Source of the DNA: Burkholderiales bacterium
GTDB lineage: Bacteria; Pseudomonadota; Gammaproteobacteria; Burkholderiales; Burkholderiaceae_C
DNA: 36,020 nucleotides
Direction of reading: 5' to 3'
NCBI GenBank assembly: GCA_028868875.1
Contig: JAGWTS010000010.1
Span: 1 to 36,020 of the forward strand
A program made the translations under genes and the position numbers. Positions 12,262 to 36,020 of the stretch are shown piece after piece. The notes under the pieces were generated by a model. That model had not been told where the DNA came from. It was given only the letters and a program-made list of their open reading frames with translations, and searched no databases. Each line of letters starts with the position of its first letter. The first letter of the stretch is position 1.

Positions 12262-13362
12262 TCAGCGGTGCTCCCCCAGGCGTGGCGCCGGTGCGAAGGC
12301 CGCGTCGTCCCACTCCGTCTTGTAGGGCGGCGCGGGGATCTCGGCACGCTGGCCGTTGACCGTCATCGGCCGGGTCCGCAACTGCGGGTGGTCGATCAGG
12401 TCGTGCACCGAGTTGATGGCGCCGAACGCGGTCTGGGCCTCGGTCAGGCGGGCGATGGCCTGGGCGTGGCTCAGGCGGGCGAAGGCGCACTGGACGGCCT
12501 CTTCCAGCGCCTCGCGGTGCTGGACCCGGGCGGCATTGCTGCAAAAGCGCGGATCGCTCGCCATGGCGGCGTCGCCCATCACCACGGTGCAGAAGTTCGC
12601 CCACTCGCGTTCGTTCTGGATCGACAGCACGATGGCTCGACCGTCGCTGCAGGTGTAGGCGCCGTAGGGCGCGATGCTGGGGTGCTTCAAGCCGACGCGC
12701 TCCGGTGCCTTGCCGCCGTAGCGCGCCTGCAGATAGGGCACCGCCATCAGCTCGGCGGCGGAATCGAACAGCGAGACCTGGACGCCGCTGCCGCGGCCGC
12801 TGCGCTCGCGCTGCAGCAGGGCCTGCTGCACGCCGATGAGCGCGTTCATGCCGGCGCTGATGTCGCAGATCGAAACGCCGATGCGGCCCCAGGGTCCGGG
12901 CGCGCCGCTGACGGCGACGAGCCCGGCTTCGGCCTGCACGAGCAGGTCGTAGGCCTTCAGATGCTGCAAGGGCCCGGATTCGCCGTAGCCGCTGATGTCG
13001 CAGGTGACGAGACGCGGATGGCGCTGGCGCAGGATGCCCGATCCGAAGCCGAGCCGGGCCGCTGCGCCGGGCGCGAGGTTCTGCACGAACACGTCGGCCG
13101 TTTCCAGCAGCCCGTGCAGCTCCTGCCTGGCCTCGGGCTGGCGCAGGTCGAGCACCAGCGATTCCTTGCCGCGGTTGATCCAGACGAAGTACGCGGACTC
13201 GCCGAAGACCGCGTGGTCGTAGCCGCGCGCGAAGTCGCCCTCCGGGCGCTCGATCTTGATGACGCGGGCGCCGGCGTCGGCCAGTCGGCTGGTGCAGTAG
13301 GGCGCTGCCACCGCCTGTTCCAGCGCGACGACGGTGATTCCCTCGAGTGGTTTGCCGGGCAT
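12262..13362 (-). CDS. Family III CoA-transferase, itaconate/C5-dicarboxylate type
   Basis: A 366-residue family III CoA-transferase. The N terminus (GITVVALEQAVAAPYCTSRL) and the blocks ERPEGDFARGYD, WINRGKESL and CDISGYGESGP closely resemble my recollection of Pseudomonas aeruginosa PA0882, the itaconate CoA-transferase. The expected catalytic Asp is D167 in SICDISAG. Relatives activate itaconate, mesaconate, citramalate or similar diacids with succinyl-CoA. A citramalyl-CoA-lyase-like gene at 18502 supports a C5-diacid role. The ATG at 13362 is chosen because the family begins here; an upstream in-frame ATG (MGVDPND) would add 13 residues. It is the last gene of the minus-strand series starting at 18402, and a LysR regulator lies 119 nt upstream. 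Confidence 0.87.
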   Translation of the reverse strand: MPGKPLEGITVVALEQAVAAPYCTSRLADAGARVIKIERPEGDFARGYDHAVFGESAYFVWINRGKESLVLDLRQPEARQELHGLLETADVFVQNLAPGAAARLGFGSGILRQRHPRLVTCDISGYGESGPLQHLKAYDLLVQAEAGLVAVSGAPGPWGRIGVSICDISAGMNALIGVQQALLQRERSGRGSGVQVSLFDSAAELMAVPYLQARYGGKAPERVGLKHPSIAPYGAYTCSDGRAIVLSIQNEREWANFCTVVMGDAAMASDPRFCSNAARVQHREALEEAVQCAFARLSHAQAIARLTEAQTAFGAINSVHDLIDHPQLRTRPMTVNGQRAEIPAPPYKTEWDDAAFAPAPRLGEHR

Positions 13363-14441: not shown

Positions 14442-16256
14442 TCAGGCCTCGATCAGCGCGACCGCATAGGGCTCGAGGCGCAGGGTCCGGTCGGCCGTGC
14501 CGGCAGCGCGCCAGGCGGGCGCTTCGTCCCGGCTGGCATCGAGCGCCAGCTGGCGGCTTGCGGCGGCCAGCCCCTCGAGCTGCACCTCGGCCGGCTCGGG
14601 GCCCAGATTGCCGATCACGACCAGCGGCCGCCCGTCGCGCTGCAGCGCCAGCGCCGCAATCCGCTGCGGCTGCGAAACCTGCACGCTCAGCCGGCGCGCC
14701 GGCCGCCCGAGCTGGCGCAGGAGGTGGAACGCGGGATGGCGCGTCACGCCGCCGCCGGACTCGAGGGTCACGATGCCCTGGGCCCCGCGCAGCGACAGCA
14801 GGGTGAGCGCCTGCACGCCGTGCTGGGCCAGGCCGACGACATGGCCCAGGGCCCAGGCGGCGCCGAACTGGGCGCGGCTGCGCGGATCGACCGCGGCCAA
14901 GGCGATGCGGCGCGTGCCGTCGCTGGGCGGCTGCGCGCCGAGCGGACTGGAGCGCGCGGCGATCGCGCTCGGGCCGATGCGCAGCGGCAGCGCCGGCTCG
15001 CGTGCGCGCCAGCTCGCGACCAGGGCCGGCAGGCTGGCGAGGCCGAGCATGACTTCGTCGTCGTCCGCGCCGTGCACGACCGAGGCGGTGGTGAAGCTCG
15101 CGAAGTCGACCGCGCCCAGCGCGTCGAGCCGGCTCAGCTGGACGAAGAAATGGGGCGTGCCGCCGCCGACCTCGACCCGCGCCAGCACGCGCCGGGCCGC
15201 GTCGATGGTGGCGGGGTCGCTCGGGAAGACGGCGATGGCCGCGGGTGCGACGGCGGCCGCGTCGAGCTCGGCCTGCAGCGCCTGGAGTGCGGCCGTCGCG
15301 TCGCCGGCGTCGGGCAGCAGGGCATCCAGCCGCAGCCGGGCGCCGGCGGCTTCCAGCATCGCCGCCATGCCGGGCCAGTGCACGCCCAGGCCCGGGCGCC
15401 AGGCCAGATGCAATTGCGCCGGCCGCAGCTCGCGCAGCAAGGGCAGCAGCGCCGCTTCGCGGGCGTCGTCCGCGTGGACCTCGATGCCCACCGCGAGCCA
15501 GGGCCCGGAATCGGCGCCCGGCGTCACGCGCAGCGGCTCGTGCGGCCGCCGCACGAGCCGCTGCGGGCGCTCGATGCGCAGCAGCGCCGATTGCCGCAGC
15601 GCCACGCCGGCGCCGAGCCGGTAAGGCCGCGGCGCCATGTTCGAGCGGCTGTAGGTCTTGAACGAGGCGTCGGCGTTGTTGCGCTGGTCCTCGGTCTCGA
15701 AGCTGTCGCCTTCGAGGGTGGCCTGGGCCCAGCGCCCCGGCGCCCATTCGTGGCGCAGCGCGCGCACGAGCATGAACGGCGGCCAGGGCGGAACCTGTTC
15801 GGGAAAGGTCGAGGCGCTGCAGCGCCCGTCGGTGTGCGTGACCTGCACGCGTGCGCCGCAGGCCTGCAGCGGATGCAGCAGGCACAGGCCCAGGCGGTTC
15901 AGCTCGAGGTCCGCCGTCGGGACGGCCTCGGCCTCGAAGCGGATGCTGCCGTCGGCGCTGCCGCCGAGGTGCAGGCGGAAAGGAAGCGGCGCCGGGGTGG
16001 CAAAGCGGCCCTCGATGCGGACCTCGAACGCATCGTCGGCGCTGCGGATCTCGATGTGCTCGACGAGCGCCTGCGGCGTGCCCCAGTCGGCATCGCGCAG
16101 CACGAAGGCCAGCCCGTGCCAGACCTCGTGCCCGCCGCAGCGGATGTGGCGCAGCCGCCCGCGCTGCAGTTCCAGCGTCAGCGGGCCCGCCCGCAGCACG
16201 CGCGCGGGCTCGACGGCTTCGTCGGTGCCGTAAAGGCGCTGCGCGGGCGACGCCAC
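14442..16256 (-). CDS. apnL: D-apionate-lactonase-like protein (three-domain TIM-barrel family)
   Basis: A 604-residue protein that I recognise by its family blocks: LYGTDEAVEPARVLRAGPL at the N terminus, LRHIRCGGHEVWHGLAFVLRD, DADWGT, and ETEDQRNNADASFKTYSR, where relatives usually read DQRNWTDASFKTY. Such proteins have an N-terminal beta domain, a central TIM barrel (here about 270-500) and a C-terminal beta domain. Characterised members are D-apionate lactonases (ApnL) of apiose catabolism; many others are untested. The 745-residue ORF in the track is not real upstream because it overlaps the EthD gene in a wrong frame. I chose the GTG at 16256, 17 nt after the EthD stop, with GAAGG just upstream. 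The neighbours (hydratase, dehydrogenase, EthD protein) are not the published apiose set, so the true lactone may differ. Confidence 0.65.
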   Translation of the reverse strand: MASPAQRLYGTDEAVEPARVLRAGPLTLELQRGRLRHIRCGGHEVWHGLAFVLRDADWGTPQALVEHIEIRSADDAFEVRIEGRFATPAPLPFRLHLGGSADGSIRFEAEAVPTADLELNRLGLCLLHPLQACGARVQVTHTDGRCSASTFPEQVPPWPPFMLVRALRHEWAPGRWAQATLEGDSFETEDQRNNADASFKTYSRSNMAPRPYRLGAGVALRQSALLRIERPQRLVRRPHEPLRVTPGADSGPWLAVGIEVHADDAREAALLPLLRELRPAQLHLAWRPGLGVHWPGMAAMLEAAGARLRLDALLPDAGDATAALQALQAELDAAAVAPAAIAVFPSDPATIDAARRVLARVEVGGGTPHFFVQLSRLDALGAVDFASFTTASVVHGADDDEVMLGLASLPALVASWRAREPALPLRIGPSAIAARSSPLGAQPPSDGTRRIALAAVDPRSRAQFGAAWALGHVVGLAQHGVQALTLLSLRGAQGIVTLESGGGVTRHPAFHLLRQLGRPARRLSVQVSQPQRIAALALQRDGRPLVVIGNLGPEPAEVQLEGLAAASRQLALDASRDEAPAWRAAGTADRTLRLEPYAVALIEA

Positions 16257-18501: not shown

Positions 18502-19290
18502 ATGTTGCCACGCTCGTACCTCTTCGTCCCCGCCGACCGGCCCGAACGCATCGCCCGCGCCCTGCAGAGCGGCGCCGACGCCGTCATCGTCGATCTGGAA
18601 GATGCCGTCGCCCCGGCCGCCAAGGCGGCGGCGCGCCAGGCCTTGCAGGGCTGGCTGGAATCGGCCGCGGCGGCCCCGGTGCTGGTGCGCGTCAATGCCT
18701 CGAACACGCCCTGGCACGAAGACGACCTGCGCTTGTGCGAGCGGCCCGCGGTGCGCGCCATCGTGCTGCCCAAGGCCGAGGACGCCGCCGCGCTGGCGCG
18801 CCTGGCCAAGCCGGTGCTGCCGCTGATCGAGACCGCGGCCGGCTTCGATGCGCTGCGCGCCATCGCCGCCGCGCCGGGCGTGCGGCGCCTGGCCTTCGGC
18901 GCGCTCGACTTCCAGGTCGACCTGGGGATCGAAGGCGACGACGACGCGCTGCTGTTCTTCCGCTCGCAGCTCGTGCTGGCCTCGCGCCTGGCGGGGCTGG
19001 AGGCGCCGGTGGACGGCGTGACCACCGCGCTCGACGACGAAGAGGCGGTGCGCGGCGACACGGCGCGCGCGCGCCGGCTGGGCTTCGGCGCCAAGCTGTG
19101 CATCCACCCGAAGCAGGTGGCAGCCGTGAACCGCGGCTTCACCCCCGCCGACGCCGAGATCGACTGGGCGCGGCGCGTCATCGCGGCGGCGCAGGGCGGT
19201 GCTGCGGTGGCGGTGGACGGCAAGATGGTGGACGCTCCGGTGCTGTTGCGGGCCGAGGCCTTGTTGCGCCGGGTGCCGCCTCTGCCTTGA
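18502..19290 (+). CDS. HpcH/HpaI-family CoA ester lyase, citramalyl-CoA-lyase-like
   Basis: A 262-residue CitE-like TIM-barrel lyase. The N terminus RSYLFVPADRPERIARAL with VIVDLEDAVAP is typical of the family. R63 in LVRVN and the Mg ligands E110 (PLIETAAG) and D136 (FGALDFQVD) are present, and KLCIHPKQV is a late family block. It resembles the small lyases of itaconate degradation (P. aeruginosa PA0883, citramalyl-CoA lyase), which give acetyl-CoA and pyruvate. Malyl-CoA or beta-methylmalyl-CoA cleavage cannot be excluded. The ATG at 18502 has GGGATCGACCC upstream. The itaconate-type CoA-transferase at 12262 and mcd-mct at 24468-27367 fit a citramalyl-CoA substrate. It is divergent from the hydratase-like gene. 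Confidence 0.85.
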   Translation: MLPRSYLFVPADRPERIARALQSGADAVIVDLEDAVAPAAKAAARQALQGWLESAAAAPVLVRVNASNTPWHEDDLRLCERPAVRAIVLPKAEDAAALARLAKPVLPLIETAAGFDALRAIAAAPGVRRLAFGALDFQVDLGIEGDDDALLFFRSQLVLASRLAGLEAPVDGVTTALDDEEAVRGDTARARRLGFGAKLCIHPKQVAAVNRGFTPADAEIDWARRVIAAAQGGAAVAVDGKMVDAPVLLRAEALLRRVPPLP

Positions 19291-24467: not shown

Positions 24468-26123
24468 TCAGCCGGCGCCCGGCGCCTGCGCCAGCAGCCC
24501 GCGCCCGATCACCTGGGCCTGGATCTCCGCCGCGCCTTCGAAGATGTTGAGGATGCGCGCATCGCAGAGCACGCGGCTGATCTCGAATTCGAGCGCATAG
24601 CCGTTGCCGCCGTGGATCTGCAGGCCGGCATCGGCATTGCTCCAGGCCACACGCGCGGCCAGCAGCTTGGCCATGCCGGCCTCGATGTCGCAGCGCAGCC
24701 CCTGCTCCTTTTCCGCCGCGGCGTGCAGCGTGAGCTGGCGCGCGACGAAGGTTTCGGCCACCATCATCGCGAGCTTGTCGGCCACGCGCGGGAACTGGAC
24801 GATGGCGGCGCCGAACTGGCGCCGCTCGTTGGCGTAGCGCCAGGCCAGGTCGAAGGCGCGCCAGGCCACGCCCAGCGCGCGCGCCGCGGTCTGGATGCGC
24901 GCGCTCTCGAAGGTCTGCATCAGCTGGCGGAAGCCCTGGCCGCGCCGGCCGCCGAGCACGGCGTCGGCTTCGAGTTCGAAGCCGTCGAACGCGATCTCGT
25001 ATTCCTTCATGCCGCGGTAGCCCAGCACCGGAATGTCGCCCCCGCTCATGCCCGCGGCCGGGAAGGGCCGGGCGTCGTCGCCGCGCGGCTTAGGCGCCAG
25101 GAACATCGTGAGCCCGGCATGGTCTTCGACGCCGGGCTCGGAGCGCGCCAGCAGCGTCATCAGGTCGCTGCGCGCGCCGTGGGTGATCCAGATCTTGTTG
25201 CCGTCGATGCGCCAGCGGCCTTGCGGGGTGAGCGTGGCGCGCGTGCGCAGCGAGGCCAGGTCCGAGCCGCAATCGGGTTCGGTGAAGACGGCGGTCGGCA
25301 GCACCCGGCCCGAGGCGATGGCGGGCAGCCAGCGCGTCTTCTGCGCGGGCGTGCCCGCCGTCGCGATCAGGTCGCCGGCGATCTCGCTGCGCGTGCCCAG
25401 CGAGCCCGCGGCGATCCAGCCGCGGCTCAGTTCTTCGGTGACGATGCACATCGCGCGCTTGCCCAGCCCCATGCCGCCGTATTCGGCCGGAATGCAGATG
25501 CCGAAGACGCCGAGGGCGGCGAGTTCGTCGATCAGTGCCTGCGGGATGAGGGCGTCGGCGAGGTGCCAGGCCTGGGCATGCGGGGTGACCTCGCGTTCGG
25601 CGAAACGGCGGAACTGGTCGCGGATGAGGTCGAGCTCATCGTCGAGCGCGGTCTCGCTCAGCTGCACGCCGCTGCGCAAGGCCTCGACCAGGGCCCGGCG
25701 CGCTTCGGCACCGCCGGCGGCGAACAGGTCCTGCACCGCGGGCAGGGCGGCGAACGCCTCGGCCTGCACGTGCAAGCCGAGCTCGCGCGGGCGGAAGATC
25801 TCGTTCTGGCCCATCGGGATGCCGCCCGCGACCTGGGCCACGTACTCCGCGAGCCCGACCGCCAGCACCTGCGCGTCCAGCGCGCCGAGGCGGCCCGCGT
25901 CGGCCAGGCGCAAGCCCCAGGCGGCGGACTGCGCCACCGCCTCGACCGTCGTCGCGGTCCAGGCGAAGCCGTGCAGCGCCCGTTGGTGGCGCAGCAGCAA
26001 GGCCGGGTCGGCGCGGCCGGTCGGACAAAGCAGGCTGCGAGCGGCGTTCTGCGCGGCGTGGCCGTAGGCGCGCACGGCGGGCACCAGGATCTGGAGAATT
26101 TCGCTGAATTCCGGTGCGGCCAT
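24468..26123 (-). CDS. mcd: (2S)-methylsuccinyl-CoA dehydrogenase
   Basis: A 551-residue flavoprotein made of an N-terminal extension of about 165 residues and a full acyl-CoA dehydrogenase domain. The extension is the mark of Mcd and shows its blocks GLAEYVAQVAGGIPMGQNEI and RALHGFAWTATTVEA. The junction LDDELDLIRDQFRRFAEREV and the core TEPDCGSDLASLRTRA, GYRGMKEYEIAFDGF and QTFESARIQTAARALG match my recollection of alphaproteobacterial Mcd closely. E406 in FESARI is the expected catalytic base. It oxidises methylsuccinyl-CoA to mesaconyl-C1-CoA and passes electrons to ETF. I chose the ATG at 26123, 5 nt after the mct stop; a TTG at 26132 would overlap mct by four bases. In the ethylmalonyl-CoA pathway mcd works with ccr, ecm and mch, none of which are here. 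Confidence 0.9.
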   Translation of the reverse strand: MAAPEFSEILQILVPAVRAYGHAAQNAARSLLCPTGRADPALLLRHQRALHGFAWTATTVEAVAQSAAWGLRLADAGRLGALDAQVLAVGLAEYVAQVAGGIPMGQNEIFRPRELGLHVQAEAFAALPAVQDLFAAGGAEARRALVEALRSGVQLSETALDDELDLIRDQFRRFAEREVTPHAQAWHLADALIPQALIDELAALGVFGICIPAEYGGMGLGKRAMCIVTEELSRGWIAAGSLGTRSEIAGDLIATAGTPAQKTRWLPAIASGRVLPTAVFTEPDCGSDLASLRTRATLTPQGRWRIDGNKIWITHGARSDLMTLLARSEPGVEDHAGLTMFLAPKPRGDDARPFPAAGMSGGDIPVLGYRGMKEYEIAFDGFELEADAVLGGRRGQGFRQLMQTFESARIQTAARALGVAWRAFDLAWRYANERRQFGAAIVQFPRVADKLAMMVAETFVARQLTLHAAAEKEQGLRCDIEAGMAKLLAARVAWSNADAGLQIHGGNGYALEFEISRVLCDARILNIFEGAAEIQAQVIGRGLLAQAPGAG

Positions 26124-26128
26124 GGATC

Positions 26129-27367
26129 TCAATCGTTCGAGGGGGTGGGGCCCGGCCCGGCGACGAGCCCGGCGTCATGCAGCTCGGCGATGCGCGCGGG
26201 GCTGAGCGAGAGCAGGTCAGCGAGGACGGCATCGGTGTGCTCGCCCAGCCGCGGCGCGCGCACGACCGGCGCGCGCGCCATGCCGACGAAGTTCGCCGGC
26301 GCGCCCGGTGCCGGATAGCGCTCGCCGCTGGGGTGGTCCAGTTCGTCGAACAGCGGCGCGGCGAGCGCAAAGCGCGGGTCTTCGCGCAGCGCCTGGCCGA
26401 GCGTGCGGTACAGGCTCCAGCACACGCCATGGGCCTCGAAGCGGCGCGCCAGCTCGTCGAAGCCGAGCGCGCCGATGGCCTGCTCGAAGATCGGGAACAG
26501 CGCCTCGCGGTGGATGAAGCGCTGGCCTTCGTCGCGGTCGAAGGCGACCCGGCGCTCGGCTTCGAGGCCTGCGATCCGGGCGTCGAGCTGCAGCGCCTGC
26601 ACGAGGCCGGTCCATTGCCGCGGCGTGATCGCGACCACCATCACGCGCCGGCCGTCGGCGCTCGTGAAGTCGCGGCCGAAGGCGCCGAACACGGCGTTGC
26701 CGAAGCGCGGCCGGTCGCCGCCGGCCAGCACCTCGGCGATCTGGCCGGTGTGGCCGAGCGCGGTCAGCGCCACGTCGGACAAGGCGATCGTCACCTCGTG
26801 GCCGCGGCCGCTGCGCAGGCGCTCGCGCTCCGCGGCCAGCGTCGCGAACGCGGCATAGGCCCCGGTGAGCAGGTCCCAGGCCGGCAGCACGTGGTTCACC
26901 GGGCGCGCGCCGGGTTCGGGCTCGCCCGTCATCCAGGGCAGGCCGAGCGCGGCATTGACGGTGTAGTCGACGCCCGATCCGCCGTCGCTCCAGCCCATCA
27001 CGCGCACCGTGATCAAGTCCTCGCGCTGCTTGCGCAGGGCCTCGTGCGAGAGGAAGCCGTCCTTCGGAAAATTCGTCACCAGGATGCCGCCGTCGCGTCC
27101 CGGCGCGGTGATGAGCTCGAGCGCGAGCCGGCGCCCTTCCGGTCGCGAGAAATCGATCGCGATCGAGCGCTTGCCCTTGTTCAGCCCTTCCCAGTAGTAG
27201 CTGGAGCCGGCGGCCGAAAGTGGCCAGCGGTGGAAGTCGGGCCCGCCGCCGATCGGGTCGATGCGGATCACCTCGGCACCCAGCTGCTGCAGTTGCAGCG
27301 CGCAGGACGGCGCGGCGATGAAGGACGCACATTCGACGATGCGCATCCCGGCGAGCAAGGGGTACAT
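26129..27367 (-). CDS. mct: Mesaconyl-CoA C1-C4 CoA transferase (2-methylfumaryl-CoA isomerase), family III
   Basis: A 412-residue family III CoA-transferase that matches my recollection of Chloroflexus aurantiacus Mct over its whole length. Shared blocks include IDPIGGGPDFHRWPL, GLNKGKRSIAIDF, VDYTVNAALGLPWMTG, VNHVLPAWDLLTG and GAFGRDF. The catalytic Asp falls at D165, the same number as in the Chloroflexus enzyme. Mct moves CoA within mesaconyl-CoA from C1 to C4 without an external acceptor. It is known from the 3-hydroxypropionate bicycle, where a C4 hydratase and citramalyl-CoA lyase follow. Here it precedes mcd with a 5-nt gap, so the two are certainly one transcript, and the substrate of Mct is the product of Mcd. 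No other bicycle gene is in the window. Confidence 0.88.
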   Translation of the reverse strand: MYPLLAGMRIVECASFIAAPSCALQLQQLGAEVIRIDPIGGGPDFHRWPLSAAGSSYYWEGLNKGKRSIAIDFSRPEGRRLALELITAPGRDGGILVTNFPKDGFLSHEALRKQREDLITVRVMGWSDGGSGVDYTVNAALGLPWMTGEPEPGARPVNHVLPAWDLLTGAYAAFATLAAERERLRSGRGHEVTIALSDVALTALGHTGQIAEVLAGGDRPRFGNAVFGAFGRDFTSADGRRVMVVAITPRQWTGLVQALQLDARIAGLEAERRVAFDRDEGQRFIHREALFPIFEQAIGALGFDELARRFEAHGVCWSLYRTLGQALREDPRFALAAPLFDELDHPSGERYPAPGAPANFVGMARAPVVRAPRLGEHTDAVLADLLSLSPARIAELHDAGLVAGPGPTPSND

Positions 27368-27456: not shown

Positions 27457-28227
<771 letters not shown>

Positions 28228-28274
28228 GGGCTTGGTTCTTCGTGGGCGGGGTCTTCGAGCGCGCCGGCGGGCTT

Positions 28275-28988
28275 TCAGTGCCCTTGCGGCCGCTGGAACG
28301 CGAGCAGGCGATGTTCGAGCTTGCGAAAGAGTGCGATCAGCACGAACGCCAGCGAGGCATACAACAACGCGGCGATGCCGTAGGCGTCGAACGACGCGAA
28401 GGTCGCCGAATTGACGTCGCGCGCGACCTTCAGGATGTCGGGAATCGTCGCCGTGAAGGCCAGCGGCGTGGCGTGCAGCATCAGGATGACCTCGTTGCTG
28501 CATTGGGGCAGCGAGCGCCGCAGCGCCGAGGGCAGGATGACGCGGCGCAGCATCGTAAAGCGCGACATGCCGAAGGCCTGCGCGGCCTCGATCTCGCCGG
28601 CCGCTGTGGTCTTGATCGCGCCGGCGAACACCTCGAGCATGTACGCGCATTCGTTGAGCGCGAAGGCCAGCAGGGTGCAGTTCATCGCGTCGCGAAAGAA
28701 GGCGTTCAAGGCCGGCTGGTCGCGCACGGCCTGCAGGCTGTAGATGCCCGTGTAGCAAAGCAGCAGTTGCACGTAAAGCGGCGTGCCGCGGATCACGTAG
28801 GAGTAGAACCACACCGGCGCCGAGATCCAGCGCTTGCTCGAAGCCCGCGCCACGGCCAGCGGCACCGCGAGCACGAAGCTCATGACGATCGAGGCGACGA
28901 GCAGCCAGAGGGTCACGACCAGCCCCGAGGGCCGGAAGCCGTCGGAATACAGATAGGCGACCCCGTATTGCCGGAGGATGTCGATCAT
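28275..28988 (-). CDS. Amino-acid ABC transporter permease, HisM-like
   Basis: A 237-residue inner-membrane permease with about five membrane helices. The HisM-type block [20 protein letters not shown] is at the N-terminal side, and the ATPase-contact loop reads [20 protein letters not shown] followed by [12 protein letters not shown]. Its ATG overlaps the stop of the upstream permease as ATGA, so the two are translationally coupled and form the heterodimeric channel typical of HisQM. The ATPase gene follows after 47 nt. Confidence 0.92.
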
Positions 28989-29674
28989 GATTCGACCCTT
29001 CTCATCCCGACCGAGAAGCGTTTTTCGAGGCGGTGCAGAACGAGGCTGGACAGCGTCGTGATGAGCAGGTAGATGGCGCCGGTGACGAAGGTGAAGAAGA
29101 AGAACCGGAGCGTGTTCTTGCCCGCATCCTGCGCCACCTTGACGACATCCGACAGGCCGATGATCGAGACCAGGGCCGTGGCCTTGATCAGCACGAGCCA
29201 GTTGTTCGTCAGCCCCGGTAGCGCGAAGCGCATCATCTGCGGGAAGAGGATGCGCCGGAAGACGCGCCAGCCGCTCATCCCGAAGGCGGCGCCGGACTCG
29301 ATCTGCCCGCGCGGCACGGCGAGGATGGCGCCGCGGAAGGTCTCGGTGAAATAGGCGCCGTAGATGAAGCCCAGCGTCAGCACGCCGGCGAGAAACGGGT
29401 CGATGTCGATCTGCTCGAAGTGCAGCGCGTCGGTGATGCGGTTGAGCAGGATCTGCATGCTGTAGAAGAGCAGCAGCATCAGCACGAGGTCGGGCACGGC
29501 CCGGATCAGCGTCGTGTAGGCATTGCCGATGCCGCGCAGCAGCGGGTTCGCCGACAGCTTGGCGCCGGCGCCGAGCAGGCCGAGGCAGAACGCCGCGAGC
29601 AGCGAGACGAACGCGAGCTTGAGCGTGAGCAGCGTGCCGACGAGGAGTTGGGGCCCGTAGCCTTGCAGGGACAT
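28985..29674 (-). CDS. Amino-acid ABC transporter permease, HisQ-like
   Basis: A 229-residue permease. Family features are [20 protein letters not shown] at the N terminus, [20 protein letters not shown] and the contact loop [20 protein letters not shown] with [18 protein letters not shown]. The ATG at 29674 begins the usual HisQ start ([10 protein letters not shown]); the 272-residue ORF adds 43 residues of unrelated Pro/Arg-rich sequence. It follows the M14 peptidase by 31 nt and overlaps the HisM-like gene by four bases. Confidence 0.92.
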
Positions 29675-29705
29675 GGTGGTCTCGGGGAGGGGTCGGCGCG
29701 CCGCC

Positions 29706-30836
29706 TCAGCGCGGCTGCGGGGGCGCCAGCGTGGGCAGGGCGGCGAGGGCGCGCTCGAAGGCGTGCCAGCTGCGCCGCCAGGCGATCTCGCGCCAGTCGC
29801 CATCGGCGGGCAGGAAGCGCTCGAACAACTCGCGCTTGATGGCGCGCGTTACGGGGTCGGCGGGGTCGGCGTGCGGGCCGTGCAGGTGCAGCCAGTGGTC
29901 GTCGCGCAGCGAGCGGTGCATCGCGACCGGGTCGTAGGTCCCGCACTCGATCACGAGTTGCAGCAAGGCGGTGCGCGGCAGGGCATCGAGCAGGGCCTGC
30001 GAGGTGTAGCCGGTGGCGCCGGCAGCGACGCCGGTGTCGCTGCTGCGGCCCTTGCCGGTGAACAGCGTGTAGAGCCAGGGGCCGAAGATCGATCGCGCCG
30101 GCTCGAGCGCCGGGTAGGGCGCCTGGGCAATGGCCATCAGCATCGGGTGGCCGAACTCGCCTGCGCCGGTGTGCAGGTCGAAGCCGATCGCCGCTTCGGC
30201 GTGGCCCAGGTGCTGCTCGACGATGCGCTGCAGCGTCCGGCGCGACCAGCTGGGTTCGCGCCCACCGTAGAACAGGCCGTCGGCGTGAGCATATTGGCCC
30301 GCGCCCGTGATGTCGTGCAGGCCGCGCCAGCCGTGGGTGGCAACGGCTTTCTCGAGCAAGGCGTCGGCGCGGCGCCTTTCGGGGCCGTCGAGGTCGCGGC
30401 AGGTGTAGATCTCGTGCAGGCCTTCGTAACCTTCGTTGCGCGGGGGGCCGGCGGCGAAATCGACGTAATTGCGATTCAGGTCGACGTTGTCTTCGGTGAC
30501 GCGGCGGCACCAGGCCGCGCCCCAGGGATTGATGAGGTGGACCATCATCACCGCCACGTCGCCGGGCAATGGGCGGCCCTTCAATTGCTGCAGCCAATTG
30601 CTCTGGCAGGTCGAGCCGTAATAGCCCTCGACGCCATGGGTGCCCGAAATGATGAACAGGACGCGGCGCGCGCGCGGATCGCCGAGCCAGGCCACGTCGG
30701 TCCGAAGGGTCTCGCCGGCGGGGCCCGGCAGAGGGTGGGAATGGGTGCTGAGCGCCGCTCCGGCAGCCTGCGCGGCGTTCAGAAATCGATCTCGCACCAG
30801 GCTGTAGTCGGCGCTATCGGGGAAACCCTGGGTCAT
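29706..30836 (-). CDS. M14-type metallopeptidase, DUF2817 family
   Basis: A 376-residue zinc carboxypeptidase-like protein. The zinc ligands are H67 and E70 in ISGTHGVEG and H222 in FDLHTGAG. NVDLNRNYVDF is the M14 substrate-binding block, and E297 in LVIECGTYD is the likely general base. No signal peptide is present, so it should act in the cytoplasm. The ATG at 30836 has AAGGATGA just upstream. It is the first gene of the operon encoding the HisQ-, HisM- and HisP-like transporter. This suggests it processes an imported peptide or N-acyl amino acid, perhaps releasing histidine. The family has few characterised members, so the substrate is a guess from context. Confidence 0.85.
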   Translation of the reverse strand: MTQGFPDSADYSLVRDRFLNAAQAAGAALSTHSHPLPGPAGETLRTDVAWLGDPRARRVLFIISGTHGVEGYYGSTCQSNWLQQLKGRPLPGDVAVMMVHLINPWGAAWCRRVTEDNVDLNRNYVDFAAGPPRNEGYEGLHEIYTCRDLDGPERRRADALLEKAVATHGWRGLHDITGAGQYAHADGLFYGGREPSWSRRTLQRIVEQHLGHAEAAIGFDLHTGAGEFGHPMLMAIAQAPYPALEPARSIFGPWLYTLFTGKGRSSDTGVAAGATGYTSQALLDALPRTALLQLVIECGTYDPVAMHRSLRDDHWLHLHGPHADPADPVTRAIKRELFERFLPADGDWREIAWRRSWHAFERALAALPTLAPPQPR

Positions 30837-30891
30837 TCATTCATCCTTGATTGCCTCGGTGCAGGCCCTGCTGTTGAACGCCGGCGCACGA

Positions 30892-30920
30892 GCTTAACGG
30901 GCGTAGGAAAAAAAGGATAG
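30892..30920 (-). promoter_or_regulatory. Candidate promoter of the peptidase-transporter operon
   Basis: On the minus strand CTATCC (30920-30915), 17 nt, then TTAAGC (30897-30892) gives a weak sigma-70 promoter with a start near 30885. The LysR-type dyad at 30941-30957 is centred about 64 bp upstream, the normal position for activation. Both hexamers are poor matches, as expected for an activator-dependent promoter. Confidence 0.4.
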
Positions 30921-30940
30921 CTGGCAAAATCCCGCCACTC

Positions 30941-30957
30941 ATTTAGACTTTCTAAAG
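30941..30957. promoter_or_regulatory. LysR-type operator ATTTAG-N5-CTAAAG, copy 1
   Basis: The sequence ATTTAGACTTTCTAAAG contains a perfect TTTAGA-CTT-TCTAAA dyad and fits the LysR T-N11-A rule. It lies between the divergent peptidase operon and the LysR gene, 28 bp before the LysR ATG. That position allows both autoregulation and activation of the operon. The same outer twelve bases recur at 32882-32898. Confidence 0.7.
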
Positions 30958-30985
30958 TGTAGTCATTGGCCGTGCAGGGATCGAG

Positions 30986-31930
30986 ATGACCAAGCTTCCT
31001 CCGCTTCGCGCGCTTCAAACCTTCGAGGCTCTGGGCCGCTGCGGCAGCGTCGCCTCCGCGGCAAAGCGCCTGGGCGTTTCGCCCGGGGCGGTGAGCCAGC
31101 AGATGAAGCTGCTCGAAGACGTGCTGGGCCTGCGCCTGACACAGAAGGACGGCAAGCGCCTGCGCCTGACGGCGCTCGGGCGCCAGTACCACGAAGGCTG
31201 TGCCGCGGGTTTCGAGGCCTTGCGCGTCACCCATGCCGAGGTGGTGCGGTCTAAGTGCGAGCGCAAGCTGAGCGTGAGCGCGCTGCCTTCGCTGCTGGCC
31301 CAGTGGCTGGCGCGGCGCGTCTACGCCTGGCAGGAAGGGCAGGGCGATGTCAGCCTGTACCTGGATGGCACCCACACCGAGCCTTCGCCCGACGGCCACG
31401 AGGTGGATTTCCGCGTCAGCTACGGCGACCGCGCCACCGATGTCGACAACGCGGTCGAGTTGTTCCGCGACAGCGTCGTCCCGGTCTGCAGCCCGCAGCT
31501 GCTGGCGGGTGCGGTGCTGAAAGGCCCGGCCGACATCCTGGCCTACCCCTTGATCAGCATCGACTGGTTGCCCAAGTTCGCTTCGCCGCCGGGCTGGCGC
31601 GACTGGTTCGAGGCCAACGACGTGGCCTGTGCCGACCTCGCCGACGGGAGGCAAGTTCACTCGCTGTCCAGCCTCGCGATCCAGGCCGCGGTCGAAGGCC
31701 GGGGCTTTGTCCTGGCGCAGGTCTCGATGGTCTGCGACGACCTGGCTGCGGGCAGGCTCGCGATGCCGTTCGCGCTCGGCCTGCCGCTGCCCTGGCCCTA
31801 CTTCCTGACCTGGAAGCCGAGCGCCTTCGACAAGCCGCATTGCCGCAGTTTCCACCGCTGGTTGCTCACACGAGGCAGGGAGCAGCAGCAGGTCAACGAC
31901 CGCATGCTGCGCCTGCCCGAGCCGGCATGA
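30986..31930 (+). CDS. LysR-family regulator, GcvA-like, of the amino-acid transport genes
   Basis: A 314-residue LysR regulator. The winged helix-turn-helix is at the N terminus (LRALQTFEALGRCGSVASAA, then LGVSPGAVSQQMKLLE), of the GcvA/AmpR-like type with PPLRALQTFE. The effector-binding domain begins near 95 (KLSVSALPSLLAQWLARR) and continues to WPYFLTWKPSAF. It is divergent from the peptidase-transporter operon and convergent with the binding-protein gene, whose stop is only 17 nt away. Two copies of one dyad, beside this gene and upstream of the binding-protein gene, suggest it activates both units, perhaps in response to histidine or urocanate. Confidence 0.92.
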   Translation: MTKLPPLRALQTFEALGRCGSVASAAKRLGVSPGAVSQQMKLLEDVLGLRLTQKDGKRLRLTALGRQYHEGCAAGFEALRVTHAEVVRSKCERKLSVSALPSLLAQWLARRVYAWQEGQGDVSLYLDGTHTEPSPDGHEVDFRVSYGDRATDVDNAVELFRDSVVPVCSPQLLAGAVLKGPADILAYPLISIDWLPKFASPPGWRDWFEANDVACADLADGRQVHSLSSLAIQAAVEGRGFVLAQVSMVCDDLAAGRLAMPFALGLPLPWPYFLTWKPSAFDKPHCRSFHRWLLTRGREQQQVNDRMLRLPEPA

Positions 31931-31947
31931 GGCGGGAGGCCGGGGAC

Positions 31948-32721
31948 TCAGCGCCCGGAGATGTCGAAGTCGAAGTACTTGGCTTCGATCTTGCGGTAGG
32001 TGCCGTCCTTGAAGAGGGCGCTGATGGCGCCGTCGACCTTGGCGCGCAGCGCGTCGTCGCCCTTGCGGAAGCCGATGCCGGCGCCGACGCCCATCGTCTT
32101 GGGGTCGTTGACGTCGCCGCCGGCGAAGGCGTAGCCCTTGCCCTGCGCCGTCTTCAGGAAGCCCAGGCTGCCGGCGAGCGTGTCGGTGAAGGTGGCGTCG
32201 ATGCGGCCCGAACGCAGGTCGGCCCAGATGGCTTCCTGGTTCGGGTAGGAGACGACGTCGACGCCCGCAGGCTTCCAGTAGGCGTTGGCATAGGCCTCCT
32301 GGATCGTGCCCTGGGCGATGCCGACGGTGTGGCCCTTGAGCGAAGCGACCGTGGGCCTGAGGGGCGAGCCCTCCTTGGCGATGAGCCGGCTCGGGGTGTT
32401 GAACAGCGGCTGCGAGAACGCCACCTGCTCCTGGCGCTTGGGCGTGATCGACATGGCCGAGAGGATGGCGTCGAACTTGCGGCCTTGCAGCGCCGGGATG
32501 ATGCCGTCGAAGCCGGTCTCGACCCAGACGCATTTCACGTCGAGGCGCTTGCAGATCTCGTTGCCGACGTCGATCTCGAAGCCCACGAGTTCGCCCGAGG
32601 GCGACTTGGATTCGAAGGGGGCGAAGGTCGGGTCGACGCCGAAGCGCAGGGTCCCCTCGGCATGGGCCGGGACGACGAACGCGGCGATCGACAGCGCGAT
32701 GCCGGCGATGAATTTCTGCAT
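31948..32721 (-). CDS. Periplasmic amino-acid binding protein, HisJ/ArgT (LAO)-like
   Basis: A 257-residue binding protein with a Sec signal peptide (QKFIAGIALSIAAFVVPAHA, cleavage after AHA near 21). The mature start TLRFGVDPTFAPFESKSPSG and the blocks GFEIDVGNEICKRL, FDGIIPALQGRKFDAILSAM and MSITPKRQEQVAFS are typical of HisJ/ArgT proteins. It is separated from its likely permease and ATPase genes by the LysR and peptidase genes. It has its own promoter region with a copy of the LysR dyad. By context it feeds the importer at 27457-29674, most likely with histidine or another basic amino acid. Confidence 0.92.
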   Translation of the reverse strand: MQKFIAGIALSIAAFVVPAHAEGTLRFGVDPTFAPFESKSPSGELVGFEIDVGNEICKRLDVKCVWVETGFDGIIPALQGRKFDAILSAMSITPKRQEQVAFSQPLFNTPSRLIAKEGSPLRPTVASLKGHTVGIAQGTIQEAYANAYWKPAGVDVVSYPNQEAIWADLRSGRIDATFTDTLAGSLGFLKTAQGKGYAFAGGDVNDPKTMGVGAGIGFRKGDDALRAKVDGAISALFKDGTYRKIEAKYFDFDISGR

Positions 32722-32831
32722 GGGAACTCCAGGTGGGCTGAGGGGGAGAGTGACGAGGCTGCGATCGCGGGGCCGGTGCCCGAAAGGAGGGGCGTCCGAC
32801 CGAGCCGCGGCAGCCTGGCCACGGGAGGCCT

Positions 32832-32860
32832 AGTCTAGGAGGCGCGACCTGCTTCGACCA
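32832..32860 (-). promoter_or_regulatory. Candidate promoter of the HisJ-like gene
   Basis: On the minus strand TGGTCG (32860-32855), 17 nt, then TAGACT (32837-32832) predicts a start near 32825, giving a leader of about 100 nt. The LysR dyad at 32882-32898 is centred about 65 bp upstream of this start, the same geometry as at the peptidase operon. Confidence 0.45.
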
Positions 32861-32881
32861 GGGGACAAACTCTGCTGCGTG

Positions 32882-32898
32882 ATTTAGCGGGGCTAAAG
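32882..32898. promoter_or_regulatory. LysR-type operator ATTTAG-N5-CTAAAG, copy 2
   Basis: The sequence ATTTAGCGGGGCTAAAG contains a perfect TTTAGC-GGG-GCTAAA dyad. Its outer twelve bases are identical to the copy at 30941-30957, while the five central bases differ but keep the symmetry. It lies between the hutD stop and the HisJ-like gene, so it should control the latter. Confidence 0.7.
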
Positions 32899-32914
32899 CC
32901 ATGCCTGCGCCTTG

Positions 32915-33556
32915 TCAGCGCGGGCTGCCCCGCGCACCGACCGACTCGCCGTCGACGGGCCCGATCTCGATCTGGAACAGGGTCAGCGCCTGTTCGGCCT
33001 CGGCGCGCCAGGCCCCGGGGTGCGCCGCTTCGACGAACAGCGCATCCAGCGGGCCGAGCATCACGGCATCGATCTTCGGCCCGCGGATGCGTGCCGCGCC
33101 GTCCTGGCACAGCCAGAGCAGGGTGGGCGCGTCGCTGCGGCATTCCAGCAGGTGCTCGAACCGGTGGCGTTCGACGCGGTGGCGCAGCAGCGCGCGCCGC
33201 GTCATGACGTTGAGGTCGCGCACCGCACCGTTCGTCAGCTGGGCCCGGGTCGGGGCGTCGGCGGCGAAAGTCAGCGGCGCCGATTCGGGGCCCAGCGTCA
33301 CGGCTGCTGCGGTTCCCACTTCGAGCCGCAGCCCCGCGCCGCGAACCACTGCGAGCGTGCGGTCGACGCCGGGGAAGGTCGAGAACGGCCCATCGGCCGC
33401 GACGCCGGCCAGGCTGACGCGCCAGTCGAAATCGCCGATGCCGGCCCCCGGCGGGTGGACCGCCACCTCGACGGTCTCGCCGCCGCCGTTCTTCCACGGC
33501 ATGCGGCGCGCCTCGGCGGCGCGGATCAGGCGCCACCTGGGTGCGTCGTTCGCCAC
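32915..33556 (-). CDS. hutD: HutD-family protein
   Basis: A 213-residue HutD protein, recognised by RLIRAAEARRMPWKNGGGET at the N terminus, FDWRVSLAGVAADGPFSTFPG and the cupin-like continuation. HutD is found with histidine-utilisation genes; its exact role is unclear, and it has been proposed to limit over-accumulation of pathway intermediates. I chose the GTG at 33556, which is 5 nt after the hutU stop. No ATG lies between that stop and the conserved MPWKNGGG block except the one inside the block. The 668-residue ORF in the track is hutU read in a wrong frame. It is the last gene of the hut operon in this window. Confidence 0.88.
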   Translation of the reverse strand: MANDAPRWRLIRAAEARRMPWKNGGGETVEVAVHPPGAGIGDFDWRVSLAGVAADGPFSTFPGVDRTLAVVRGAGLRLEVGTAAAVTLGPESAPLTFAADAPTRAQLTNGAVRDLNVMTRRALLRHRVERHRFEHLLECRSDAPTLLWLCQDGAARIRGPKIDAVMLGPLDALFVEAAHPGAWRAEAEQALTLFQIEIGPVDGESVGARGSPR

Positions 33557-33561
33557 GCCGT

Positions 33562-35252
<1,691 letters not shown>

Positions 35253-35256
<4 letters not shown>

Positions 35257-35384
35257 CGGGAATCTCCGGGCAGGTTCGGGGAAGAAGGGCCGGCCTTGGC
35301 CGGCTCGGTGGCCCACTGCAGGGTGGAGGCCAGGACGTCGGCCAGGGTGCGCCGGGTGGGCTCGGCGCGGTCGGGGTCGCTCAT
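35253..35384 (-). CDS. Small ORF (43 residues) between hutH and hutU, unknown function
   Basis: This ORF is too short for the track. Its ATG (35384-35382) overlaps the hutH stop as ATGA and follows the strong ribosome site GGAGAGG. Its stop overlaps the hutU ATG as ATGA. About 37 of 42 sense codons end in G or C, as in the neighbouring genes, and the exceptions are near the end, where the hutU ribosome site lies. The product begins [20 protein letters not shown], then has a likely short helix ending [11 protein letters not shown] and a Pro/Ser-rich tail. I recognise no domain. It could be a small accessory protein of histidine catabolism or a coupling cistron that carries ribosomes from hutH to hutU. 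Confidence 0.65.
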
Positions 35385-36020
35385 CGCACCTCTCCGGCGA
35401 CGCCGGGCAAGGCCACTCCGGCCGCCGCCTCGGCCAGGGCGCCGCGCCGCACGAGGCCGATCGCGGCTTGCAGGTCGGGGTGGAAATGGCGGTCTTCGTC
35501 CAGGTGCGGCACCTCGGCGCGCAACAGGGCCCGCGCGGCTTCGAGCGGCGGGCTGGTCTTCAGGGGCGCGTGGAAGTCGCAACCCTGGGCTGCGGCGAGC
35601 CATTCGATGCCGATCACCGCGCTCGCGTTCTCGGCCATGGCCAGCAGGCGGCGCGCGCCATGTGCGGCCATCGAAACATGGTCTTCCTGGTTCGCCGAGG
35701 TCGGAATCGAATCGACGCTGGCCGGGTAGGCGCGCTGCTTGTTCTCCGAGACCAGGGCCGCGGCCGTGACCTGCGGAATCATGAAGCCCGAATTGAGCCC
35801 CGGGCGCGGGCACAGGAAGGCGGGCAGCCCCGAGAGCGCCGGGTCGACGAGCATCGCAATGCGGCGCTCGGCGAGCGAGCCGATCTCGCACAGCGCCAGC
35901 GCAATCATGTCGGCGGCAAAGGCCACCGGCTCGGCGTGGAAGTTGCCGCCCGACAGCGCCTCGCCTTCGGCGGCGAAGACGAGCGGGTTGTCCGAGACGC
36001 TGTTGGCCTCGATGTGCAGC
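35381..36020 (-). CDS. hutH: Histidine ammonia-lyase, C-terminal part (runs off the window)
   Basis: The last 212 codons of a histidine ammonia-lyase, which deaminates histidine to urocanate. Diagnostic blocks are [20 protein letters not shown] with FHAEPVA at the window edge, then [20 protein letters not shown] and [15 protein letters not shown]. The Ala-Ser-Gly segment that forms the MIO cofactor is upstream, outside the window. The 181-residue ORF in the track begins at an internal Met; the frame is open to the edge. It is the most upstream hut gene seen here and overlaps the small ORF by four bases. Confidence 0.96.

Follow-up and report, generated by a model that had tools for sequence, protein, structure and literature searches.

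The mct-mcd pair and its products

The stretch of DNA analysed here, called the window below, is 36,020 nucleotides (nt) long and comes from a Burkholderiales bacterium (Burkholderiaceae_C; assembly GCA_028868875.1, contig JAGWTS010000010.1, positions 1-36,020). Two adjacent genes on its reverse strand, mct and mcd, encode homologues of a 2-methylfumaryl-CoA isomerase-type coenzyme A (CoA) transferase and of (2S)-methylsuccinyl-CoA dehydrogenase (Table 1). As noted in an original prediction made from the sequence alone, the two genes are separated by a gap of 5 nt, and they are likely to be co-transcribed. Both are genuine genes, with a coding signature in the GC content of the third (GC3, 0.92-0.93) and second (GC2, 0.51-0.52) codon positions. 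The pair probably forms the centre of a catabolic module for converting methylsuccinyl-CoA to acetyl-CoA and pyruvate outside both known cycles, the ethylmalonyl-CoA pathway and the 3-hydroxypropionate (3HP) bicycle.

The best structural match of the window's Mcd is the enzyme of Paracoccus denitrificans (6es9; E=3e-192, 305/525 residues identical, 58%). The alignment starts at residue 14 and includes the N-terminal extension (about 170 residues in Mcd enzymes), and the Acyl-CoA_dh domains occupy residues 162-544 of 551. All six reference residues (PMC5798300, Paracoccus numbering) are retained: R252, R376 and R421 for the carboxylate, A285 and F287 in the methyl pocket, and the base E535. Their counterparts in the window are R245, R370, R415, A278, F280 and E529. 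The original prediction had named D165 of Mct and E406 of Mcd as key residues. The first is present, while E406 was rejected as the catalytic base of Mcd: it pairs with Paracoccus E412, and the base is E529.

Mct matches PF02515 (E=1.1e-56, residues 5-378) and the 2-methylfumaryl-CoA isomerase model TIGR04253 (E=1.2e-125, 420 bits, residues 4-405 of 412). The closest solved structures, spanning residues 3-406, are the Mcts of Roseiflexus (7xkg) and Chloroflexus (8apq), the latter being 50% identical. With identities of 50-58% to solved structures, the folds of Mct and Mcd can be taken as settled. In a tree, the 30 proteins of clade C, to which the window's Mct belongs, form a single group with a support of 100. 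Among the reference residues taken from PMC9813914, D165, R47 and Y136 (Y135 in the window) are retained in the window's Mct and in all 30 clade-C proteins, and R47, Y136, D135 and D165 are invariant in all Mct clades compared. An Mct scoring above 380 bits is carried by 22 of 301 genomes of the window's family, and these Mcts belong to several clades.

Recurrence of the pair and its genomic context

A search with a three-sequence Mct alignment against one genome per species (84,980 species) returned 25 relatives of the window's Mct with 57-75% identity. They come from Variovorax, Caballeronia, Candidatus Paraburkholderia kirkii, Acidovorax, Ramlibacter, Rubrivivax, Rhodoferax, Ottowia, Pseudomonas and Limoniibacter. 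Where a clade-C locus has enough downstream sequence, mcd lies directly after mct in 19 cases out of 21 (the exceptions are L069 and L075), and Mcd-type active-site residues are found wherever mcd is complete. Such loci span Burkholderiaceae, Comamonadaceae, Pseudomonas and Alphaproteobacteria, and the pair is also present at four plasmid loci. Because it recurs in this way among related loci, the adjacency is more than chance. The two proteins have also co-evolved: Mcd (E<=1e-90) occurs in 3 of the 301 family genomes, exactly the three that have a clade-C Mct, and the pairwise distances of Mct and Mcd are correlated (r=0.93; Mantel test, 0/5000 permutations, clade-D pair excluded).

The original prediction held that the known cycles do not explain the pair, and comparative genomics supports this. 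The check that it proposed for ccr and mch was run on the window's genome. The best ccr match, at 72.5 bits, falls far short of the cut-off (378.6), and there was no ccr match in any of the 26 clade-C Mct genomes (the window's genome and 25 others). For mch, the best match in the window's genome is partial (21.8 bits, below the cut-off), and the other clade-C genomes gave mostly half-length MaoC matches; the PF19315 model detects Mch poorly, giving even a Burkholderiales Mch only 56 bits, and partial matches were not counted as Mch. The ethylmalonyl-CoA pathway was rejected as the context of the pair because ccr is lacking. The mutase genes of the window's genome look like one methylmalonyl-CoA mutase split across two contigs plus one long fused protein, and without ccr there would be no ethylmalonyl-CoA supply for them. 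The 3HP bicycle is not supported as context either. No mcl or mch adjoins mct in the window (the search did not extend to the CO2-fixing half with malonyl-CoA reductase and propionyl-CoA synthase), and the 3HP-type Mcts of related genera in the family (L048, L050) sit with a CaiB pair, mcl, mch and meh and form a separate clade, clade A.

The original prediction also required a MaoC-type mesaconyl-C4-CoA hydratase and a citramalyl-CoA lyase (Ccl). Both are encoded in the same operon as the pair in relatives, and homologues are present in the window's genome. On plasmid pSHV1 of Sphingobium herbicidovorans MH, mct, mcd, meh and ccl are consecutive, with gaps of 26, 13 and 5 nt; meh encodes a FAS1/MaoC-type hydratase, and the lyase scores 266 bits to RipC_Ccl. 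Sphingomonas paeninsulae has the order mct-mcd-meh, the last encoding the hydratase. Plasmid 2 of Pseudorhizobium flavum holds mct, hydratase, lyase and etf genes, with mcd elsewhere on the plasmid. Acidovorax, Caballeronia, Ramlibacter and their relatives have an operon encoding a lyase, MaoC, an AMP-ligase, an acyl-CoA dehydrogenase, a thiolase, an enoyl-CoA hydratase, Mct and Mcd, beside which etf lies in several of them. Identities of 42-56% are found among the FAS1-type hydratases, and also between them and the hydratase encoded beside 3HP-type mct. All 22 family genomes with mct have a hydratase homologue; in the family as a whole, 143 of 301 genomes have one (P=3e-8, uncorrected for relatedness).

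The window's genome is available as a draft of 571 contigs, with 96.7% completeness and 6% contamination. Its hydratase gene was found with a six-sequence Meh alignment on contig C543 (E=7e-35), where it is cut by the contig end; PF13452 alone was rejected as a test, as it returned only short, unrelated MaoC proteins. Over 98 residues, the product is 76% identical to a Rubrivivax hydratase whose gene adjoins one for an itaconate-type CoA-transferase. According to a published study (PMC12290011), itaconyl-CoA hydratase can also hydrate mesaconyl-C4-CoA. The candidate lyase in the window matches PF03328 (4.3e-36), PDB entry 8khl (2e-50) and RipC_Ccl (165 bits, cut-off 375). It is 56% identical to the P. 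flavum Ccl, whose gene adjoins meh, and would take part in the route. The CaiB-type CoA-transferase gene of the window is a possible accessory gene, although its membership is uncertain. The ich-type gene on C543 and the ccl-like and ict-like genes of the window are not clustered with one another.

Table 1. Positions of the genes and gene groups in the window
Feature	Positions	Strand	Remarks
mct, 2-methylfumaryl-CoA isomerase-type CoA-transferase homologue	26129-27367	-	412 aa; PF02515, TIGR04253, 7xkg/8apq
Gap, mct stop to mcd ATG	26124-26128	-	5 nt, read from sequence
mcd, (2S)-methylsuccinyl-CoA dehydrogenase homologue, ~160-residue N-terminal extension	24468-26123	-	551 aa from ATG; 6es9
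HpcH/HpaI lyase, candidate citramalyl-CoA lyase (Ccl)	18502-19290	+	262 aa; near mct-mcd, outside their operon
CaiB-type CoA-transferase	12262-13362	-	48-51% to itaconate CoA-transferases of ich clusters
hisM/hisQ/hisP-like transporter, DUF2817 gene, ArgT/HisJ-like binding protein, hutU	27457-36019	-	
Protein without Pfam match, between EthD-domain gene and LysR regulator gene	14442-16256	-	604 aa

The neighbours of the pair are a histidine-type ABC transporter (hisQ-hisM-hisP) on the 5' side of mct and a DoxX gene on the 3' side of mcd. The histidine-use region directly upstream is probably unrelated to mct-mcd.

Other loci show further arrangements. In Candidatus Paraburkholderia kirkii (L073, 10001-12801), mct and mcd align just in pieces and appear decayed. 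In Sinorhizobium mexicanum (L167, 6665-9732), a clade-D Mct is encoded immediately after an Mcd-like gene, which suggests that the pairing arose more than once. The mcd gene adjoins a 2-oxoglutarate dehydrogenase E1 gene in L111, L170 (Azospirillum) and L168 (P. flavum), and in Azospirillum an mct of the Ile43 type lies about 2 kb away. In Novosphingobium aromaticivorans pNL2 (L166, 6908-9351) and Novosphingobium ES2-1 (L169, 6941-9387), mcd is followed by a FAS1/MaoC hydratase gene with no adjacent mct; either mct is located elsewhere, or the hydratase takes the C1 ester. At L155 (4482-8562, the same place as L075, in Rhodoferax OV413), a clade-C mct lies beside an itaconate-type set of opposite-strand genes for Ccl, a C4-type dehydrogenase and a hydratase, an arrangement that physically links Mct to the C4 route described below.

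A second family of Mct-linked dehydrogenases, about 40% identical to Mcd, is encoded at L053-L059, L063, L085, L112 (plasmid pAKD34) and L113 (Variovorax SRS16 plasmid 3). The three arginines and the base of Mcd are conserved in this family, but Ala285 is replaced by Ile, and Phe287 by Ile or Met. Some of its operons hold genes for Meh, an FAD oxidoreductase, a thiolase and HMG-CoA-synthase-like proteins. Its substrate is probably another dicarboxyl-CoA.

A proposed route and its competitors

In the proposed route, whose reactions, direction of flux and upstream substrate are all deduced from sequence, a thiolase would first cleave a methyl-branched C6 dicarboxylate or oxoadipate (e.g., 3-methyladipate, or 4-methyl-3-oxoadipate from methylcatechol) to acetyl-CoA and methylsuccinyl-CoA. 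Mcd would then oxidise (2S)-methylsuccinyl-C1-CoA to mesaconyl-C1-CoA, passing the electrons to electron-transferring flavoprotein (ETF), and Mct would shift CoA to C4, yielding mesaconyl-C4-CoA. From this, a FAS1/MaoC-type mesaconyl-C4-CoA (itaconyl-CoA) hydratase would form citramalyl-CoA, to be split into acetyl-CoA and pyruvate by a Ccl/CitE-like lyase. Carbon tracing indicates that 3-methyladipyl-CoA and 4-methyl-3-oxoadipyl-CoA would give the C1 thioester, the substrate of Mcd, and predicts a C4 ester from the herbicide 2-methyl-4-chlorophenoxyacetic acid (MCPA). In organisms whose thiolase yields the C4 ester, Mct would perhaps be needed before Mcd too, and it may therefore act both before and after it. 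The original prediction, in which Mct acts directly after Mcd and redirects carbon to pyruvate and acetyl-CoA, is thus partly supported.

The pair more likely handles methylsuccinyl-CoA from beta-oxidation or from ortho cleavage of methylcatechol. The conversion of 4-methyl-3-oxoadipate to methylsuccinyl-CoA has been described (PMC6449761). The C1 thioester would not be usable by the published C4 route, and methylsuccinyl-C1-CoA has been called a dead end for C. necator (PMC12290011). The location of the pair on the MCPA plasmid pCADAB1, together with chlorocatechol, oxoadipate CoA-transferase and thiolase genes, also speaks for the proposed route. Catabolism of free methylsuccinate, as envisaged originally, is unlikely to be the main function, since a C4-thioester route that requires no Mct has already been published for this acid (PMC12290011).

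Several observations weigh against a role of the pair in such a route. Firstly, the activities of the clade-C proteins are predicted from sequence. Secondly, the Mct score of 420 bits is below the TIGR04253 equivalog cut-off of 725, as are those of the 3HP-type Mcts (657-706 bits). Thirdly, hydratase and lyase are encoded outside the mct-mcd operon in the window's genome, the hydratase gene being truncated, and Ich/Meh hydratase homologues are common and belong to itaconate clusters in many of these genomes. The lack of mch and ccr is also not absolute, because the genome is a draft in many contigs with some contamination. Finally, characterised intramolecular Mcts have a 'cork' in which Leu/Ile43, at the tunnel mouth, is reported to be present throughout, and Arg75 and Arg104 contact the adenosyl group (PMC9813914). 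The window's Mct has Pro43, Ser74 and Asp103 at these positions. Residue 43 is Pro in 21 of the 30 clade-C Mcts, Met in eight and Leu in one, while the other Mct clades compared keep Leu or Ile. Given that this marker and Arg104 are replaced, transfer by clade C could be intermolecular. Clade-C Mcts, which alter a residue conserved in the intramolecular group, are therefore putative members of it.

If transfer were intermolecular, Mct would act first, as a succinyl-CoA:methylsuccinate (or mesaconate) CoA-transferase, and supply Mcd with the activated form of the free acid, in the way that benzylsuccinate CoA-transferase serves its own dehydrogenase. The order of the genes, transferase and then dehydrogenase, is consistent with this, as is the altered cork, and family III includes intermolecular dicarboxylate CoA-transferases, of which the benzylsuccinate enzyme is an example. 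Nevertheless, this explanation is unlikely. R47, Y136, D135 and D165 are invariant among the clades, and R47 is reported to sit where intermolecular enzymes have their flexible glycine loop (PMC9813914). In addition, related bacteria have a dedicated C4 route for free methylsuccinate (PMC12290011), and the best-equipped operons encode their own acyl-CoA ligase and thiolase.

Another possibility, which also appears improbable, is that the main task of Mct is to turn methylsuccinyl-C4-CoA into the C1 ester ahead of Mcd, with a second action on mesaconyl-CoA afterwards, as would be expected for carbon arriving from 5-methyl-3-oxoadipyl-CoA (from MCPA or 3-methylcatechol). The pair is present on pCADAB1, a plasmid of the MCPA degrader Sphingomonas ERG5 that also holds the chlorocatechol pathway and pcaIJF (oxoadipate CoA-transferase and thiolase genes), and it occurs with meh and ccl on pSHV1, where the gene order mct-mcd-meh-ccl would be the order of the steps. 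The altered tunnel mouth could admit a saturated substrate. However, the ester position is a prediction from carbon tracing, and a search of the Mct paper turned up no activity of any Mct on methylsuccinyl-CoA. On pCADAB1, moreover, mct-mcd is not part of the catabolic transposon Tn6228, and about 25 kb separate it from the thiolase gene pcaF; no FAS1/MaoC-type hydratase or Ccl-type lyase was seen in the stretches of this plasmid that were read.

It is very improbable that the pair is left over from the ethylmalonyl-CoA pathway or the 3HP bicycle, or was acquired piecemeal as part of one of them, with no new route. The two enzyme families are familiar chiefly from those cycles, but ccr and mch were not found as described above, clade A with its own neighbours is distinct, neither active site is disrupted, and the pairing has been maintained across a deep divergence.

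Relation to known pathways and biological meaning

No description of mct-mcd as a unit was found in the literature searched. Each enzyme family is already known, as is the second half of the route, from itaconate degradation. The C4 route for itaconate and methylsuccinate (PMC12290011) likewise proceeds from methylsuccinyl-CoA through mesaconyl-CoA and citramalyl-CoA to acetyl-CoA and pyruvate, and the FAS1/MaoC-type hydratase and Ccl of its clusters are homologous to those linked with mct-mcd. It differs in using C4 thioesters throughout, with another, shorter dehydrogenase and no Mct, whereas mct-mcd combines a dehydrogenase of the C1-specific ethylmalonyl-CoA pathway type with an Mct that would bridge to C4.

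Mcd belongs to the same family as the ethylmalonyl-CoA pathway enzymes of Paracoccus and Rhodobacter and has all of their specificity residues (PMC5798300). In that pathway, Mcd receives its substrate through Ccr, Epi and Ecm, and Mch and Mcl act after it; here Mcd is coupled to Mct. Similarly, Mct shares family and catalytic residues with the 3HP bicycle Mcts of Chloroflexus and Roseiflexus (and of the partial CaiB pair-mct-mcl-mch-meh clusters), and Meh is linked to it in relatives, but clade C is separate, has altered cork residues 43, 75 and 104, and lacks mch and mcl as neighbours. Mesaconyl-CoA would come from Mcd in the case of mct-mcd, and comes from beta-methylmalyl-CoA in the 3HP bicycle.

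A comparable combination is ThnP/ThnO of anaerobic naphthalene degradation, where an intramolecular CoA-transferase and a dicarboxyl-CoA dehydrogenase are encoded in one operon, and CoA is moved between carboxyls before a beta-oxidation step (PMC11659651). However, the transferases are unrelated, ThnP being a family I enzyme, and the substrate there is a cyclohexane derivative. The mml pathway of methylaromatic ortho cleavage (via PMC6449761) yields methylsuccinyl-CoA and acetyl-CoA, the former being the proposed input of mct-mcd; its description ends at methylsuccinyl-CoA, with the downstream fate not given. In a study of toluene ortho cleavage, steps below 2-methylmuconolactone were not resolvable (PMC4321380), and the MCPA plasmid paper takes the product as succinyl-CoA.

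It is tempting to speculate that methyl-branched dicarboxylates and methylaromatics have a hitherto undescribed, partly plasmid-borne terminal pathway. In it, a clade-C Mct with a changed tunnel mouth would shuttle CoA on either side of a C1-specific Mcd, with methylsuccinyl-CoA as well as mesaconyl-CoA as its substrates. This extension is tentative. If true, it would account for how degraders of MCPA, mecoprop and methylcatechols mineralise the methylsuccinyl-CoA left by ortho cleavage.

The fate of methylsuccinyl-CoA from methylated aromatics and methyl-branched dicarboxylates is undescribed in the papers found; a widely distributed, partly plasmid-borne module fits this gap and makes the question directly testable. 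The clade-C Mcts are a set of proteins on which the cork model of intramolecular CoA transfer can be tested. In this pair, nature would also have linked the ethylmalonyl-CoA half of C5 metabolism to the citramalyl-CoA half, a precedent that is relevant to synthetic carbon-fixation cycles. For the many soil bacteria and pollutant-degrading plasmids in which the pair recurs, the route probably serves to burn leftovers of methyl-branched acids, such as those from methylated aromatics.

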